Of a DNA stretch of 64,000 nt, positions 1 through 63,349 are shown one piece after another. The stretch is from Gemmatimonadaceae bacterium. GTDB lineage: Bacteria > Gemmatimonadota > Gemmatimonadetes > Gemmatimonadales > Gemmatimonadaceae. The notes beneath the pieces were generated by a model. That model did no database searches. It was not told where the DNA came from and saw nothing but the letters and a program-made list of their open reading frames with translations. Position 1 is the stretch's first letter. Each line of letters starts with the position of its first letter. The stretch spans positions 1 to 64,000 of the forward strand of contig JAIEMN010000043.1 of assembly GCA_019752115.1 (NCBI GenBank), written 5' to 3'. A program made the translations under genes and the position numbers.

Positions 1-1
1 C

Positions 2-37
2 GCCGAGTACGAAGCGCAACAGCCGATGGCCGCGTAG
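2..37 (+). CDS. Possible C-terminal end of a gene entering from the left
   Basis: One frame reads AEYEAQQPMAA then TAG, and looks like the tail of a plus-strand gene whose body lies before the window. Only eleven codons are visible, so no function can be given and the assignment may be chance. It would converge on the oxyR-like gene, with the repeat block at 82-194 between the two ends. Confidence 0.25.
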   Translation, partial: AEYEAQQPMAA

Positions 38-81
38 TATCGATCCGACACGCGTCCACTTTTTCGGGGCAACTCCAGGGC

Positions 82-194
82 GCATACGTGGGTCGCATAC
101 GTGGGGCGCATACAGGACGCGCATACGTGGAGCGCCACCGCGGTACGTATGCGCCGTACGTATGCGCAGTATGTATGCGCCCCACGTATACGCC
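82..194. repeat. 13-bp repeats in inverted arrays (4 + 4 units)
   Basis: Four direct units beginning GCATACGTGG start at 82, 95, 108 and 121, exactly 13 bp apart. After a short GC-rich centre, four units of the opposite orientation (type GTACGTATGCGCC) start at 143, 156, 169 and 182, again 13 bp apart. The two arrays are largely reverse complements, so the block could fold into a long imperfect hairpin. It lies directly after the oxyR stop. A terminator, a protein-binding array or a repeat-expansion product are all possible. Confidence 0.85.
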
Positions 195-196
195 CC

Positions 197-1072
197 TCAG
201 CCGTTGAGTCCCTCGCGCACACACGCCAAGAACCCACCATCAACCGCAGCCCCGCGCCGAGAGACCGCCACAATCTCCCGCATCAGCGCGTGACCCTCGA
301 GCGGCACGTACACACACTGCGGCGTATTGTGCCGCACCGCGGCAATGGCCGGCACGATCGACACGCCAACGCCGGCGCCCACCAGCTCCAACACGGTGGC
401 GAGCTGCGCCGTGCGGCACACCACCGAAGGATTCACCGCGCGACTCGAACAAAACCCCGCCACCTGCTCGCCCAGACAGTGTGCCGGATCGAGCGTGATC
501 GCCGGCGCATCGTGCAGCTGCGCGAGCGTAATCCGCCCCGCGCGCGCCGCGGGATGCGTGCTCGGCACCGCCACCACCAGGCGGTCCACGCCGAGGACCT
601 CCGTCTCCAGCCCGTCGAAGGTGTACGGCAGCGCGGCAATCACTACATCGAGCGTGCCTTCGTGCAGTGCCCGCGCCAGCACGGCGCTGTAGTCCTCACG
701 CAGCTCCACCCGCGTGCTGGCGTCGCGCGCGCGCCACCGGACGAGGGCGCTCGGCATCACGTAGGGCGCCACCGTGGGAATCGCCCCCACCCGCAGCGTG
801 GCGGCGGCGATCGCGCCCTCGCGGCGCACCGCGTCTTCCGCGGCGCGCATCTCGTCGAGCAGCCGACGCGCCCGCGGGTAGAGGGCCCGGCCGGCCTCCG
901 TGAGCCGGACCCCGCGCCCGTGGCGCTCCAGCAGCTCCACCCCCAGCTGCTGCTCGAGGCGCTGCATCTGCCCCGTCAGCGAGGGCTGCGACACTCCCAG
1001 CTGCCGCGCCGCCCGGCTCAGCGACCCGGCGTCGGCGGTCTCCACAAAGCCCCTCAAGAGCACGGCGTCCAT
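197..1072 (-). CDS. oxyR: OxyR-type LysR-family peroxide sensor/regulator
   Basis: This 291-residue LysR-family regulator has an N-terminal winged helix-turn-helix (about residues 1-60) and a C-terminal substrate-binding fold. It carries the OxyR redox pair: HCLGEQVAGFC places cysteines at 199 and 208, the same numbering and 9-residue spacing as the peroxide-sensing cysteines of E. coli OxyR. In that family H2O2 oxidises the pair to a disulfide and the protein activates katG-type genes. The gene is divergent from katG across a 145-bp AT-richer gap with dyads, the usual arrangement for a dedicated regulator. The start ATG at 1072 gives the normal N-terminus (MDAVLLRGFVETADAGSLS). Confidence 0.92.
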   Translation of the reverse strand: MDAVLLRGFVETADAGSLSRAARQLGVSQPSLTGQMQRLEQQLGVELLERHGRGVRLTEAGRALYPRARRLLDEMRAAEDAVRREGAIAAATLRVGAIPTVAPYVMPSALVRWRARDASTRVELREDYSAVLARALHEGTLDVVIAALPYTFDGLETEVLGVDRLVVAVPSTHPAARAGRITLAQLHDAPAITLDPAHCLGEQVAGFCSSRAVNPSVVCRTAQLATVLELVGAGVGVSIVPAIAAVRHNTPQCVYVPLEGHALMREIVAVSRRGAAVDGGFLACVREGLNG

Positions 1073-1074
1073 AA

Positions 1075-3479
<2,405 letters not shown>

Positions 3480-4435: not shown

Positions 4436-7018
4436 TTATCGCGCGCCCGATGCGGTGGCAATCGACACCAGCGACGTCAGCTCGGATAGCCCGAACGGCT
4501 TTGGGAGCAGCTGCACATGACGTTCCTTCGAGAGCTGCGTGAACGTCTCCTCTTCCCCGTACCCCGAGCAGACGATCGCCGGCAACTCGGGCAGCTGCTC
4601 CCGGAGTGCGCGCAGCGTGCTCACGCCGTCCATCCCGGGCATCACGAGATCGAGCACGACGACATCGAAGCACTCCCCCTGCTGCACGAAGGCCACGGCA
4701 TCGCTGCCGTTCTCGGCGGTTTGCACGGTATGACCGGCCAGCAGGAGCGCCCGGGCGATCGTCCCCCGGACGAGCGGTTCGTCGTCCACCACGAGCACCC
4801 GCGCGCGCCCCGGCGTCAGCGTGACCGGCGCCGGCTTGCCGCCCAGGACGGACCCATCGCCACGCACCAGCGGCAGCAGAATGGTCACCGTCGTCCCCAG
4901 CCCCGGGGCGCTCTGCACGCTGATCTCGCCGTCGTGCTCCTGCACGATGCCGAAGGCCACACTCAACCCCAGCCCGGTCCCCTTCCCCGGCGCCTTGGTG
5001 GTGAAGAACGGCTCAAAGATCCGCTCCGCCACGTCACTCGGCATGCCGTGACCGGTGTCGCGGACCTGCAGCTGCAACTGATCGTGCTCGTCGATACTCG
5101 TGGACACGGTCAGCGTGCCGCCATCGGGCATCGCGTCGCGTGCGTTGACGATGAGGTTCATCACCACCGTCTGCAGCAACGCCGAGTCCCCGCGCACGGT
5201 AGTGGGCTTGGCGTGGAGTTCTTCCACGATGGTAATGCGGCGATCGAGCGTGCGACGCCCGAGCGCCAGCGCGGCCCGAATGGGCTGATGCATATCGAAC
5301 AGCTGGCGGCTCACCGGCTGCGCGCGCGAGAACATCATCAGCTGTTGGGTCAGCGTCGCGGCCCGTGCGGCGCTGTCGCGAATCACGTCGACTTCTTCAC
5401 GCAGCGTGGGTTGATCATCGATCGACATCGCCAGCAGGTCAGACGCCGCCATGATGCCAGCGAGCATGTTGTTGAAGTCGTGCGCGACGCCACCCGCCAG
5501 GCGCCCCACGAGATCCAGCTTCTGCGTCTGTCGCAGCTGCGCCTCGAGCCGCACCGTCTCCGAGATGTCCACGGTGGTGAAGAGGATCAGGCGCTCGCCG
5601 CCCACTTCCACCGGGTTCGCACTGAAGACGAAGTCGCGCACCTGCCCGTTCTCGTCGGTCCGGCGCAGCCGCTCCCCCTGCAGCTGTCCCTCGCGAACGA
5701 GACGTGCGCGCAGCTCCTCACGCCGAATAGGATCGGGGACCACACCGATTTCGTCGACGGTCTTGCCCATGATCTGCGGCGGCGTCATGCCAAAGAGCTT
5801 GGCATACGCCGTATTGACGCGCACATAGGTACGATCCGTCGCCCGATAGAGCGCAATGGCCATCGGGCTCGCTTCAAACATTTCGCGCAGCATGTCCTCA
5901 TCCGCTTCGCGGCGCTTGCGCCCGGCGAGCAGATCATCGGCCATGCGATTGAACGATCGCGCCAGCTCGGCGAGCTCTGCCTGCGAGGGCTCGACCGCGC
6001 GTGCGCTCAGATCGCCACGCGCCACGGCGGCATGCGCCTTCGAGAGCGCATCGAGCGGGGCGGCCACGCGCTGACGTGTGAGCACGGCCGCGATCGCCGC
6101 AAAGAGACCAACGAGCACCAGCGCGATACCGCCCCGCACGACCACCCGGTCACGCTCCTCGAACAGCGCGGACTCTTCAAAGCCGATCGCCAGCCGCCAG
6201 CCGAGCGCCGGCATGCGCCGGAAGAAGACGCGATACGGCTGCCCATCCAATCGCAGCGTGGTGGTGTCATTGTCACGCGCCTGCATGGTGGCGAGCATGG
6301 CCCGCCACTCGGCCGAGGCATCCTTGGGATTGTCGCCGCGAAAGAGCGCCGACGAGGCGGCCACGCCACGGAACGGGACGGTGGACAGCGTGCGCCCGTC
6401 CTCGTCCACGAGCAGCGCGAAGCCGGGGCTCCGCAGCTGAATCGCCTTGATGCGTTCCAGCACATCGGTGAGGCGCAGCGAGGCCCCCACCGCGCCGGTC
6501 ACCTGCCCCTGCATGTCACGGACGGGGCGCAGGATGAGTACCTCGGGGACGTTGCTCGCGATACTCTGGATGGCCTTGGTCACGACCGGCTCCCCGCGCT
6601 GCAGCTGCGGGAAGTAGTAGCGATCGCGCACACTCACCGAGGGGCGACCAGGAATGCGGATCGTCCCATCCGCGGCGATGAAGTTCACGACGTCGGCGCC
6701 GGGAAACGCCTCGGTCAGCGGGTGCAACAGCGCCGAGATCGACTCCGGCGTTCCGGTTCGCACCGCCGGCAGCAGCGCATACGCATCGAGTCGCGCCTGC
6801 AACGTGCGCAGCTGCGTGTCGAGCGACTGCACCTGCAAATCAAGTTGTTCGCGCGCTTCCTGCTCAACGGCGGTGGCCAGCAGCCGATTGACCGGTGGCC
6901 AGACCAACAGCGCGACAATCGCCATGGCCGTCGCGAGCGGCGCGAGGGTAAGAAGCAGCAGCTGCTGCCGAAGACGCATGTGTTCAAGGGGAGAGGGACG
7001 CCCCAACCTACGGATCAT
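4436..7018 (-). CDS. Hybrid sensor histidine kinase (Cache-HAMP-PAS-HK-REC)
   Basis: Membrane sensor kinase of 860 residues from the ATG at 7018; a longer reading would run into the divergent gene. Order: TM1 about 20-40; a periplasmic double-Cache-like sensor about 41-290; TM2 about 294-314; HAMP about 315-367; PAS about 373-490; HisKA with His513 in GGVAHDFNNML; HATPase with NLIVNARDAMPDGG, DTGHGMP and GKGTGLGLS; and a C-terminal receiver about 740-855 with Asp790 (VVLDLVMPG) and Lys840. The receiver suggests an internal phosphorelay. No separate response-regulator gene is adjacent, so the output partner is unknown. Confidence 0.93.
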   Translation of the reverse strand: MIRRLGRPSPLEHMRLRQQLLLLTLAPLATAMAIVALLVWPPVNRLLATAVEQEAREQLDLQVQSLDTQLRTLQARLDAYALLPAVRTGTPESISALLHPLTEAFPGADVVNFIAADGTIRIPGRPSVSVRDRYYFPQLQRGEPVVTKAIQSIASNVPEVLILRPVRDMQGQVTGAVGASLRLTDVLERIKAIQLRSPGFALLVDEDGRTLSTVPFRGVAASSALFRGDNPKDASAEWRAMLATMQARDNDTTTLRLDGQPYRVFFRRMPALGWRLAIGFEESALFEERDRVVVRGGIALVLVGLFAAIAAVLTRQRVAAPLDALSKAHAAVARGDLSARAVEPSQAELAELARSFNRMADDLLAGRKRREADEDMLREMFEASPMAIALYRATDRTYVRVNTAYAKLFGMTPPQIMGKTVDEIGVVPDPIRREELRARLVREGQLQGERLRRTDENGQVRDFVFSANPVEVGGERLILFTTVDISETVRLEAQLRQTQKLDLVGRLAGGVAHDFNNMLAGIMAASDLLAMSIDDQPTLREEVDVIRDSAARAATLTQQLMMFSRAQPVSRQLFDMHQPIRAALALGRRTLDRRITIVEELHAKPTTVRGDSALLQTVVMNLIVNARDAMPDGGTLTVSTSIDEHDQLQLQVRDTGHGMPSDVAERIFEPFFTTKAPGKGTGLGLSVAFGIVQEHDGEISVQSAPGLGTTVTILLPLVRGDGSVLGGKPAPVTLTPGRARVLVVDDEPLVRGTIARALLLAGHTVQTAENGSDAVAFVQQGECFDVVVLDLVMPGMDGVSTLRALREQLPELPAIVCSGYGEEETFTQLSKERHVQLLPKPFGLSELTSLVSIATASGAR

Positions 7019-7604: not shown

Positions 7605-7749
7605 CGCAGTCCTGGGATGCCTCGGATGCCTCGGATGCCTGGTGACTTCAGTTGGCGAACGTGCCGGTCAACGAGTGTCGATGCATCGGCAGGTCTGTTG
7701 AACTGATTTCACCAGGCATCCGAGGCATCCGAGGCATCCCAGGACTGCG
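7605..7749. terminator. Perfect 41-bp inverted repeat with 9-bp iterated arms
   Basis: Positions 7605-7645 and 7709-7749 are exact reverse complements; with two mismatches the arms extend about 8 bp further toward the centre. Each arm contains three consecutive 9-bp units, GGATGCCTC on the left and GAGGCATCC on the right. The 63-bp centre shows nothing recognisable. It fills the gap between convergent genes ending at 7594 and 7752, so it would form a very strong hairpin in either transcript. No U-tract is obvious, so Rho-independent termination of the classical type is not assured. Confidence 0.85.
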
Positions 7750-11404: not shown

Positions 11405-11512
11405 TAACCCCCGAGAGCTCAGGGCGTAGAAAGTCAGGGGGGAGAGATCAGGACCGCGGTGGCTGTCCTGAGCTCTCCCCCTGATTTTCTGCCCCCTGAG
11501 CTCTCAGGGGTT
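11405..11512. repeat. TAACCCC...GGGGTT palindromic element, copy A
   Basis: A 108-bp imperfect palindrome beginning TAACCCCCGAGAGCTCAGGG and ending CCCTGAGCTCTCAGGGGTT. The left arm reads as three degenerate ~15-bp units each containing TCAGGG or TCAGGA, and the right arm mirrors them with a ~10-bp loop near 11455-11466. Very similar elements lie at 19206-19320 and 53868-53972. This copy sits between convergent genes ending at 11372 and 11548 and could terminate both, but its repetition suggests a dispersed element. Confidence 0.9.
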
Positions 11513-14156: not shown

Positions 14157-14204
14157 GCCCGAGTATACGCCCAACCCCTCATTGTCGCTCGGTCCCACTG
14201 AACG

Positions 14205-14294
14205 GCTCGCACAGAGCACACAAAGCGCCACAGGGGACACAGAGAACGCCGGTTCTCAGTGCCCCCTGTGGCACCCTGCGCCCTCTGTGCGAGC
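14205..14294. terminator. Imperfect hairpin built of CACAGAG-like units
   Basis: A 90-bp inverted repeat starting GCTCGCACAGAG and ending CTCTGTGCGAGC, with GCCACAGGGG matched by CCCCCTGTGGC inside. The arm repeats a CACAGAG/CACAGGG motif several times. It follows the DUF1801 gene at 14302 on the minus strand and precedes the DUF305 gene start, so it may end the upstream transcript. Related sequence (CCTCTGTGCGAG) recurs at about 14740-14752, before the start of the DUF1801 gene. Confidence 0.7.
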
Positions 14295-14301
14295 AGTTCC
14301 G

Positions 14302-14709: not shown

Positions 14710-14758
14710 ACACCCCTCTGTGTATCTCCGTGCTCCCTGTGCCTCTGTGCGAGACGCT

Positions 14759-14786
14759 CAGAGTCTCAGAGTCTCAGAGTCTCACA
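14759..14786. repeat. 8-bp tandem repeat CTCAGAGT (x3)
   Basis: Three perfect copies of CTCAGAGT followed by a partial fourth (CTCA) lie just after the stop of the cis-prenyltransferase gene, in a spacer that also carries CTGTGCCTCTGTGCGAGA-type sequence. No hairpin with a U-tract is evident, so its role is unknown. Confidence 0.75.
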
Positions 14787-19045: not shown

Positions 19046-19418
19046 GGCGGGTTGAGACTCGAGCTTGGAGGTGGGAAGTCCTGCGTGACTACTGGAAATA
19101 CGCTCGGACCGGGATGAGTGCTGGGGCACGCATCCTTGTAGGGGTGGTACCGGGGGGTGGGACGAGAGGTTCCGGGGGGCCTGCTGATCTGAGGTCAGAC
19201 ATGAGTAACCCCCGAGAGCTCAGGGGGGAGAACGTCAGGGGGAAGAGTTCAGGACTGCCCCGCGCCCCGCTGTCCTGAGCTCTCCCCCCTGACGTTCTGC
19301 CCCCTGAGCTCTCAGGGGTTGCCATCCCCACCAGCGAACTTTCACTCCCAGACGTACTATCCCCGCCGGGACCCCCTCCCCGTCCCCCCGCTTTTGCTCC
19401 CCCGCGTCACCCCGTCGC
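19046..19418. other. 373-bp divergent intergenic region between b562-like and Rieske genes
   Basis: No coding sequence is apparent. The region contains palindromic element copy B (19206-19320) and, after it, a less GC-rich stretch with TACTAT near 19354-19359 that could be a -10 element for the Rieske operon. No Shine-Dalgarno sequence is clear before the Rieske ATG at 19419. Promoters for both divergent units should lie here. Confidence 0.5.
19206..19320. repeat. TAACCCC...GGGGTT palindromic element, copy B
   Basis: A 115-bp palindrome and the best-formed of three copies: roughly 49-bp arms with only a few mismatches around a ~16-bp GC-rich loop. It begins TAACCCCCGAGAGCTCAGGG and ends CCCTGAGCTCTCAGGGGTT. 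The arm reads as three related units (GAGAGCTCAGGGGG, GAGAACGTCAGGGGG, AAGAGTTCAGGAC). Unlike copies A and C it lies between divergent genes, so termination of a convergent transcript cannot be its only role. Flanking sequence TTGCCATCC is similar to TTGCTATCC after copy C. Confidence 0.92.
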
Positions 19419-46858: not shown

Positions 46859-48493
46859 ATGGATCGGACGACATTCCTCCGACGCTGGAGCGCTGTCGTG
46901 AAGCCGTACCACTCATTCATTGCCATTCTCGGCCTGGCGACCCTCGCCGCCTGTGCCGATGTCCCGACGCAATCACCCGCGGTCCCCGTCGCGCCAACAC
47001 CGACGGCCTATCTGGTCCTGCTGCGCGACACCCTGACGAGCGCCTCGACCGTTACCGCACAGGTCCTCGCTGACGCGCAGAGCAGTGCCGATATCGGAGC
47101 CCCGGGCTCGAGCGCCGCCCGGGTCATCGTCACAGAAGACGACGCGGAAGTCCTGTCGTCACTGCACGGGGCCGTGGTCACTGTCACCGCCGATCAGGCG
47201 GCGCGCTTGCGCGCCAATCCCAACGTGGAAGCCATCGAGCCGATCCGGCCCATCACAACGTTTGGCGCCAGCCTCATGGCCACGCGGTCCTGGGGGCTCG
47301 ACCGCACCAACCAGGCGTCGCTGCCGCTCGATGGACAGACCACGCGCTTTGGCGGCGATGGGAAAGGCGTCCGCGTGGCCATCTTCGACACCGGCATCCG
47401 CTGGTCGCACGTCGACCTCGTGGGGCGTGTGGCCGGGGGCTACGATGCCTTCACCAATACCAGCAAAACCAGTGGCGACGGCAACGGCCACGGCACGTTC
47501 GTGGCGTCGATCGCCGCCGGCACCAGCTACGGGCTGGCGCCCTCGGCGACGCTGCTCGATGTGCGCGTGATGAACGCGGCTGGCTCCGGCAGTTCACTCG
47601 AGCTGGCGCGCGGCGTGGATTGGGTGATCGCCGAAAAGAAGCGGGTCGCCGGGCCGATGGTGGCCAACATGAGCCTCGGCTTCAACGGCGGCAGCACGGT
47701 GATCGACGCGCTGGTCGACCGCCTGCGCGCCGCGGGCATCGTGGTGGTGGTCGCCGCCGGCAATGATGGCGGCGATGCCTGTGCGGTGTCGCCGGCGCGG
47801 GCACCGGGTGCCCTTACCGTTGGCGCGACGGCGAACGGCTCGGTGGACTCGCGCCCGTATTACTCGAACGGCGGCGCGTGTGTGGATCTCAGTGCGCCAG
47901 GCGATCAGATCATTGGTGCCGGGATGTCGGGTGACGCCGCGCTGGTGATGGGCTCCGGGACCTCGATGGCCTCACCCTTTGTGGCGGGTGCCGCCGCCGT
48001 GTATCTCGGCGTGAATGCCGGCGCGACGCCCGATGCCGTGGCCAGCTGGCTGCTCGCCGAGAGCACGTCGGGCAAGATCAGCGGCCTGCTCCCCAACACG
48101 GCCAACCGGTTGCTGACGCTGCAGCGACTGCCGGGCGTGAGCGCGCCGACGCCCGCGCCGACACCAACGCCGACCCCGACACCAACGCCGACCCCGACAC
48201 CAACCCCCACGCCGACACCGACACAGACACCAGCCGCCAGCTTCACGCTGACCACGTCGTGTGTGAATCGCGTCTGCACGATCGACGCGTCGGTGCCGAC
48301 CGGTGTGTCCGCCGCGAATGCCGCGAGTGTGCTTTACACGTGGACGTTCACCGGGCTCGGCACGAGTGCGGGCACCAATCTCCGTCGGATGGTCATCACC
48401 TTCGGCGGACCAGGGACGCTCCCGGTGTCGGTGACGGCACGGCTCGGGACAACTTCGTATGGAACGGCCACGACGACGCTGACCGTGAAGTAG
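46859..48493 (+). CDS. Subtilisin-like serine protease lipoprotein (S8)
   Basis: 544 residues. Lipobox LATLAAC with Cys32; an I9-type propeptide region about 50-130; the S8 domain with Asp177 (VAIFDTGI), His211 (GNGHGTFVAS), Asn302 (AAGNDG) and Ser369 (GSGTSMASPF). A Pro-Thr repeat linker (about 431-459) leads to an Ig/PKD-like domain (about 461-544). It is an extracellular or surface endopeptidase, matured by autoprocessing. An in-frame GTG at 46898 is a less likely alternative start. Confidence 0.95.
   Translation: MDRTTFLRRWSAVVKPYHSFIAILGLATLAACADVPTQSPAVPVAPTPTAYLVLLRDTLTSASTVTAQVLADAQSSADIGAPGSSAARVIVTEDDAEVLSSLHGAVVTVTADQAARLRANPNVEAIEPIRPITTFGASLMATRSWGLDRTNQASLPLDGQTTRFGGDGKGVRVAIFDTGIRWSHVDLVGRVAGGYDAFTNTSKTSGDGNGHGTFVASIAAGTSYGLAPSATLLDVRVMNAAGSGSSLELARGVDWVIAEKKRVAGPMVANMSLGFNGGSTVIDALVDRLRAAGIVVVVAAGNDGGDACAVSPARAPGALTVGATANGSVDSRPYYSNGGACVDLSAPGDQIIGAGMSGDAALVMGSGTSMASPFVAGAAAVYLGVNAGATPDAVASWLLAESTSGKISGLLPNTANRLLTLQRLPGVSAPTPAPTPTPTPTPTPTPTPTPTPTPTQTPAASFTLTTSCVNRVCTIDASVPTGVSAANAASVLYTWTFTGLGTSAGTNLRRMVITFGGPGTLPVSVTARLGTTSYGTATTTLTVK
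48149..48235 (+). repeat. Pro-Thr linker tandem repeat inside the subtilase
   Basis: Coding tandem repeat made of CCGACACCAACG/CCGACCCCGACA units that encodes alternating Thr-Pro between protease and Ig-like domains. Nearly pure repeats of this kind vary in length by slippage, always in multiples that keep the frame when the unit is 6, 12 or 18 bp. Confidence 0.85.
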
Positions 48494-49752: not shown

Positions 49753-49832
49753 ACCCACGACCCACAACCAAAAACCCGGAACACAGAACTGATCAGTTCT
49801 GCGTTCCGGGTTTTTGGTTATGGGTCGTGGGT
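49753..49832. terminator. 80-bp spacerless palindrome at a convergent gene end
   Basis: Arms of 40 bp meet at TGATCA without a loop; only two mismatches. It contains AACCAAAAACCCGGAA on one side and TTCCGGGTTTTTGGTT on the other. The T-run gives a plausible intrinsic terminator for the plus transcript, and the A-run (T-run on the minus strand) one for the other direction. It spans the whole gap between the cytochrome c stop (49749) and the GNAT stop (49832-49834). The left arm can be read as heptads each starting with AC. Confidence 0.9.
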
Positions 49833-53844: not shown

Positions 53845-53867
53845 GATGTGGAGTCTGCAGTTTTGAG

Positions 53868-53972
53868 TAACCCCTGAGAGCTCAGGGGGCAGACCTCAGG
53901 GGGAAGCGTTCAGGACAGCCGCAGTCCTGAGCTCCTCCCCCTGACGTTCTTCCCCCTGAGCTCTGAGGGGTT
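53868..53972. repeat. TAACCCC...GGGGTT palindromic element, copy C
   Basis: A 105-bp relative of copies A and B, beginning TAACCCCTGAGAGCTCAGGG and ending CCCTGAGCTCTGAGGGGTT. The core TTCAGGACAGCC/GTCCTGAGC is also shared. It lies between convergent genes ending at 53844 and 53995. Sequence after the element (TTGCTATCCGCCAGCG) resembles that after copy B (TTGCCATCCCCACCAGCG), suggesting a shared border. Confidence 0.9.
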
Positions 53973-53994
53973 GCTATCCGCCAGCGCCGATCTT

Positions 53995-63166: not shown

Positions 63167-63200
63167 GCGTCCCAATCTAGGGCGTCGCCTGCGGCTCCGC

Positions 63201-63334
63201 GACAACGCACGAGGTGGGGGACAACGCACGAGGATCGATGAGGACGACCCCACACACCGATCCTCGTCAGTTGTCCCCGTCCTCGTCAGTTGTCCCCGTC
63301 CTCGTCAGTTGTCCCCGTCCTCGTCAGTTGTCGC
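63201..63334. repeat. 19-bp tandem repeats with inverted partners
   Basis: On the right, three full copies and a partial fourth of TCCTCGTCAGTTGTCCCCG start at 63261, 63280, 63299 and 63318, a 19-bp period. On the left, two units GACAACGCACGAGG start at 63201 and 63220, again 19 bp apart and close to the reverse complement. The block can fold into a long hairpin. It lies between two minus-strand genes, after the aldo/keto reductase stop at 63350 and before the ABC transporter start. Confidence 0.88.
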
Positions 63335-63349
63335 GCCCAACGGGCGCCC

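Follow-up and report, generated by a model that had tools for sequence, protein, structure and literature searches.

What is the mirror-inverted tandem array that lies beside an oxyR-like gene at the edge of a Gemmatimonadaceae contig, and by which process did it acquire its form? The stretch of DNA analysed here (64,000 nucleotides, henceforth the window) comprises bases 1-64000 of contig C43 in a 5.17-Mb draft genome of 83 contigs that is 97% complete. A preliminary description had read four direct 13-bp units followed by four inverted ones, and this layout, arranged around a centre within positions 78-195, is confirmed at 81-132 and 141-192, the two arms receiving TRF scores of 74 and 70. 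Each unit combines an 8-bp palindrome, CG(T/C)ATACG, with a variable 5-bp spacer. The core takes the form CGCATACG or CGTATACG, and because CGTATACG is its own reverse complement, arm polarity is visible only in the spacer (TGGGG on the left, CCCCA on the right) and at the C/T site. The features at the contig edge are as follows.

1 to 77, plus strand: right end of an IS3-like element, with the last transposase codons (stop TAG at 35-37) and the terminal repeat ...CGGGGCAACTCCA; the same 70-80 bp stand at 6 contig ends, with the same end base.
78 to 80, plus strand: GGG, the final three bases of one 5-bp spacer, proposed from the spacing rule given below as a 3-bp target duplication of the IS, whose partner copy would lie on another contig.
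81 to 132, plus strand: left arm, cores CGCATACG at 81, 94, 107 (CGCATACA) and 120, with spacers.
133 to 140, unstranded: centre, with CCGCGG at 138-143; the consensus of other copies is, by reading, GGGAACCGCGGTTCCC.
141 to 192, minus strand: right arm, cores at 146, 159, 172 (TGTATGCG) and 185 (CGTATACG).
197 to 1072, minus strand: oxyR-like LysR regulator; 4 bp separate its stop codon from the right arm's outermost core.

The earlier placement of the array "after oxyR" holds on one side, where the oxyR stop codon adjoins the right arm, while on the other side an insertion sequence (IS) ends, its right terminus occupying the contig's first bases. The window array is accordingly read as the right flank of an IS insertion, cut by the IS at the contig edge; its left arm may be truncated and a part may be located on another contig. 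The regulator gene is divergent from a katG-like catalase-peroxidase gene (1218-3479), and the two, whose names are by reading, form an ordinary peroxide-response pair. In 19 Gemmatimonadota records the oxyR product has relatives that share 70-78% identity with it, and the closest genome compared shows 78% identity in the oxyR DNA. No Rfam family was found in the window.

The array is not unique to the oxyR locus, and its dispersed copies rule out a chance origin. Used as query, it matched its own genome 53 times but returned nothing from 40 relatives, of which 24 belong to the same genus; the pattern CGTATACGN5CGTATACG occurs 62 times in the own genome (G000) and is absent from the 29 other genomes of the genus that were compared. 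Reading 900,724 bp of the own genome, a sample picked partly for containing arrays, gave 34 arrays. Fourteen are two-armed, with arms flanking a CCGCGG-type centre; 11 are one-armed, and in the remaining 9 a contig end or IS truncates the array and leaves a single arm visible. Arms contain between 1 and about 11 units. Where identical units form runs, they do so in one arm only (C20:155809, whose right arm has 8 units and the other 4; C68:4876; the C58, C6 and C56 ends), which supports slippage, as had been suggested at the outset. The core, perfectly palindromic when it carries T, is conserved across arrays and the spacer is free. Of the 128 CGTATACG octamers in the 0.9-Mb sample (4.1 expected in all), 114 fall within arrays. 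Most copies have, by reading, GAAC(G/T)G at the foot of the hairpin. Some contig ends carry long perfect (TACTGCGTATACG)n arrays (C6:84864-84943, C56:1-70, C58:8155-8230), and the assembly apparently breaks there.

Based on the collective evidence, we consider it likely that the array is a copy of a species-restricted, REP/BIME-like dispersed element that was enlarged by slippage and is used by an IS as a landing pad. The half-element consists of GAAC(G/T)G, then (CG[T/C]ATACG + 5-bp spacer)n, then GCGGGAAC(C/G)GCGG, with two halves often joined head to head to give a long hairpin, and copies are placed directly 3' of stop codons. Slippage would alter the number of units in each arm separately. 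The transposase of the resident IS3-like element would recognise the 8-bp palindromic core, and the IS would insert at a constant point between two cores, generating a 3-bp duplication, the arrays thereby serving as harmless landing pads.

Window positions 1-77 recur at five other contig ends, always terminating ...CAACTCCA, and a second IS end, ...GGGTCAACTCCA, is present at five contig ends. Judged from sequence, the two types are taken as the two ends of one IS, since a reading frame ending RRRHSTLGYVSPAEYEAQQPMAA lies before the first and one resembling HTH_Tnp_1 lies after the second. The IS3 assignment draws on short pieces, no complete IS copy being assembled in the sequence read: the RRRHSTLGYVSPAEYEAQQPMAA C-terminus (from contig C20) matches rve_2 weakly (E 0.032, below the Pfam cut-off), and HTH_Tnp_1 is matched by a 46-residue piece (E 0.025) and in an 82%-identical decayed IS copy on C9 (E 2e-4), both likewise below cut-off. 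The IS ends TGGAGTTG/CAACTCCA fit the TG...CA end pattern; elements of the IS3 family have TG...CA ends and a 3-4-bp target duplication. Near-identical IS ends lie exactly 3 or 5 bases from the first core in 11 of 11 cases, a closeness to a core that applies to less than 0.1% of the genome on a rough core count. This regularity indicates a single fixed entry point of the IS within the spacer, 3 or 5 bases being the expectation from a 3-bp duplication at a fixed place of the 5-bp spacer in either orientation. The C68 end (spacer remnant AAC) and the C20 start (AACCA), on contigs that are not joined, appear as the two flanks of one IS copy, and from the spacer arithmetic together with this one contig pair we infer a 3-bp target duplication, AAC in the AACCA-spacer array. 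The decayed C9 copy adjoins CGTAAACG, by reading. That IS homologues of relatives also reside within hairpins was rejected, as neither of the two examined (G006, G008) does so. The IS copy of C42 (L186:1-60) is interrupted by the end of another element, TGTCAGTGATCGC..., which we take to be IS21-like and which is also present at other contig ends (C79, C35, C17). The coincidence of arrays with assembly breaks at IS junctions is relevant to the interpretation of contig ends.

With regard to genes, the 34 arrays are extragenic except for edge overlaps of at most 60 bp with called genes, and most start 2-60 bp from a stop codon; gene context here derives from our own simple codon-usage gene caller. 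The neighbours of the 22 arrays with both flanks called are convergent in 9 cases, tandem in 12 (two of these, C7:101651 and C20:90469, may conceal a missed gene) and divergent in 1. Divergent gaps are depleted of arrays (P 0.0015-0.006), and at contig-edge arrays the visible neighbour gene ends towards the array in 12 of 12 cases (P 0.0005). The convergent excess is significant against gap counts (P 0.0016) but not against gap bases (P 0.075). Empty sites could be compared at only 6 neighbouring gene pairs, those with counterparts in the sequence used from the relatives: at C45:53581 the genes of the divergent pair are separated by about 150 bp including the array here and by a short array-free spacer in the relative G041, and the tandem pair at C20:154472 by a short hairpin-free spacer there, while C17:41887 was uninformative owing to rearrangement in G041.

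The earlier remark that the same build recurs at other periods was borne out for periods of 9 and 19 bp, both belonging to dispersed families, and several further hairpins lie in the window.

7605 to 7749, unstranded: 9-bp-unit hairpin of a separate dispersed family, arms 96% complementary.
11406 to 11512, unstranded: family D hairpin (AACCCCCGAGAGCTCAGGGGG).
14200 to 14299, unstranded: hairpin resembling family C (GAACGGCTCGCACAGAG...), the family label being by reading.
19207 to 19320, unstranded: family D hairpin.
49753 to 49832, unstranded: family B palindrome (ACCCACAACCC... with TGATCA centre), whose arms evolve together.
53866 to 53975, unstranded: family D hairpin.
63198 to 63335, unstranded: 19-bp-unit hairpin of another dispersed family, with unequal arms (2 units against 4).

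Matches in the own genome, query included, number 18 for the 9-bp and 12 for the 19-bp hairpin. Family D is represented by three copies of about 110 bp in 43 kb and by more elsewhere in the genome. Two further repeats of the window are a 6/12/18-bp repeat (CCGACACCAACGCCGACC) at 48146-48239, which lies inside a gene call and probably encodes a repetitive stretch of protein, and a perfect 8-bp repeat (CTCAGAGT, 3.5 copies) at 14757-14784, most of it in the gap between a pair of called genes. Intergenic hairpins with arms of at least 22 number 21 in 464 kb of the own genome, a sample that, the window itself excepted, was not chosen for arrays, and 7 and 14 in 400 kb each of G021 and G041; the mirror-repeat control gave 2, 0 and 0, respectively. 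Downstream of oxyR, a long hairpin of other families is found in 4 of the 18 readable relatives (20 loci), the same four genomes accounting for 4 hairpins among 19 Gemmatimonadota loci. One long hairpin family (arms about 50-81 bp, loop about 100 bp) is present in several Gemmatimonadota, twice directly 3' of oxyR (L013:4893-5163 and 6094-6364; L014:4901-5148; G041 L218:2957-3210). A foot AACNG(A/C) is common to several unrelated families: it stands at both outer ends of 7 of 16 G041 hairpins and of 8 of the 53 non-13-bp hairpins of the own genome, against a chance of about 2% per end, in a survey that counts family members copy by copy and not as independent events. Gemmatimonas-like genomes might accordingly hold several sequence-unrelated, iterated 3'-end hairpin families that share this foot, perhaps spread by one RAYT-independent process recognising foot rather than stem, a speculative reading to which we assign little weight.

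The position of the arrays 3' of stop codons naturally suggests a function at the RNA level, as hairpins selected for transcription termination or for stabilising RNA 3' ends, and we regard this as possible though on balance doubtful. The RNA fold of 78-196 is very stable (-79.6 kcal/mol, z -6.7; other strand -78.8, z -7.2), with 0 of 200 shuffled sequences folding as well on either strand. Moreover, in the random 464-kb sample a long hairpin of any family occurs at 16 of 32 convergent but only 5 of 94 tandem gene ends (G021: 8/38 and 2/97; G041: 6/28 and 9/121), counts in which a convergent gap enters twice, and where one convergent gene pair is associated with a B2 palindrome here, the orthologous pair of G041 has a classical A-stem-T terminator. 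However, the transcribed strand carries no RNA signature, with 56 G-T against 54 A-C mismatches in 48 hairpins; absence of a G-T excess favours a cause at the DNA level, and RNA-level selection as the main cause is rejected on this ground. The mirrored spacers of the 13-bp family lack covariation, and no T-run intrinsic terminator was found in window positions 1-1300. T-run terminators are also not missing from hairpin ends generally: mutual exclusion of the two was rejected (21/80 hairpin ends against 27/185), and any excess of T-run terminators at hairpin ends is probably explained by family B, which itself contains T runs. For the dispersed element that we prefer, a role as an RNA 3'-end hairpin or as a transcription roadblock may nonetheless be envisaged.

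Less probable still is that the array provides sites for a host DNA-binding protein of the nucleoid, segregation or restriction type, reading CGTATACG at 13-bp steps. The conserved core with free spacer, and the confinement of the core to arrays, speak for such a protein, yet no candidate protein emerged, the array pattern is missing in 29 genus relatives, and both the 3'-end position and the fixed IS entry are explicable without a host protein. The array read by a protein, as the preliminary description had imagined it, is supported in a form that it had not anticipated, the core being confined to arrays and an IS entering at a fixed offset from it.

Hairpin-templated (quasi-palindrome) correction, which would keep the arms alike by copying units between them, is improbable for this array. 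The process as such is documented (PMC8794818); the overall arm pairing of the window array is strong, and in family B, from the same genome, changes private to a copy appear in both of its arms. There, shared arm deviations number 43, against 15.9 with arms shuffled (14 copies), and 16 against 6.0 after removal of three B2 copies and one shifted copy (10 copies), with 0 of 5000 shuffles reaching the observed value in either case; family B is shaped by template switching or by selection on pairing. The 13-bp arrays behave differently. Mirrored similarity, assessed for those of 12 arrays whose arms exceed two units, in a set that kept two arms partly out of register (the right arm of C7:101651, the innermost unit of C69), gave P 0.06 and 0.08 with the outermost unit included and P 0.27 and 0.53 without it. 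The outermost unit is of T type in 23 of 24 arms, the exception being the left arm of the window; its non-T unit suits truncation by the IS, yet the IS-flanked left arm of C44 is T-type. A column test on 10 arrays (C7:101651 and C44 omitted; C17 and C48 in neither test) returned P 0.53 and 0.98 when the C/T site was left out, and with it P 0.066 for the inner three and 0.65 for the outer three units, a weak hint at most. Arm likeness within a copy hardly differs from that between copies (0.736 against 0.703, 11 copies), and 11 of the 34 arrays have one arm only. The absence of mirrored covariation and the existence of one-armed copies speak against the templated part of the mechanism first proposed, which is supported for family B instead; its slippage part stands, and its protein-read array stands in altered form.

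Most of what is known of REP-like elements, and of the IS that parasitise them, comes from proteobacteria. A literature search returned nothing joining Gemmatimonas with "repetitive extragenic palindromic" and, by title and abstract, no such arrays described in the phylum. The likeness of the dispersed element to REP/BIME sequences is that of short extragenic palindromes in many copies, restricted to a single species among the genomes compared and used as IS targets (PMC1525189); the 13-bp arrays are extragenic, dispersed and palindromic. They differ in being tandem arrays in which each 13-bp unit contains an 8-bp self-palindromic core, where REP is a longer imperfect palindrome. In place of a GTAG-type signature, the foot of the hairpin is, by reading, GAAC(G/T)G. 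RAYTs and REP consensus sequences are listed in PMC2817692, and a search for the RAYT/Y1 transposase (PF01797), which ordinarily mobilises REP sequences, gave 0 matches in the 97% complete own genome and control matches in 5 of 14 genomes, so that a RAYT-driven REP is rejected. Since the GTAG foot and the RAYT are both missing, the arrays are filed as REP-like, not as REP. There may be a further analogy to REPINs, which are inverted REP doublets (PMC3116915): head-to-head halves form one hairpin in the 14 two-armed arrays of the 34, and single halves occur too. The array halves, however, are unequal tandem arrays of variable length, in a genome without RAYT. Regarding the IS, REP sequences are known targets, including of the IS3-family elements IS1397, ISKpn1 and ISPsy8 (PMC1525189), which like the present IS3-like element target a dispersed palindromic repeat; the target here is the spacer of a tandem array, entered at one fixed base position, and the phylum is a different one. 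A REP-like ecology, with dispersed palindromes 3' of genes and an IS entering at one exact base, is seen here in Gemmatimonadota in another architecture and without RAYT, which raises the question of what else can spread such repeats. Lastly, quasi-palindrome template switching as described in PMC8794818 fits family B and is not supported for the 13-bp arrays, and the one genome, with two hairpin families whose arms do and do not co-evolve, offers a natural contrast for testing templated correction.
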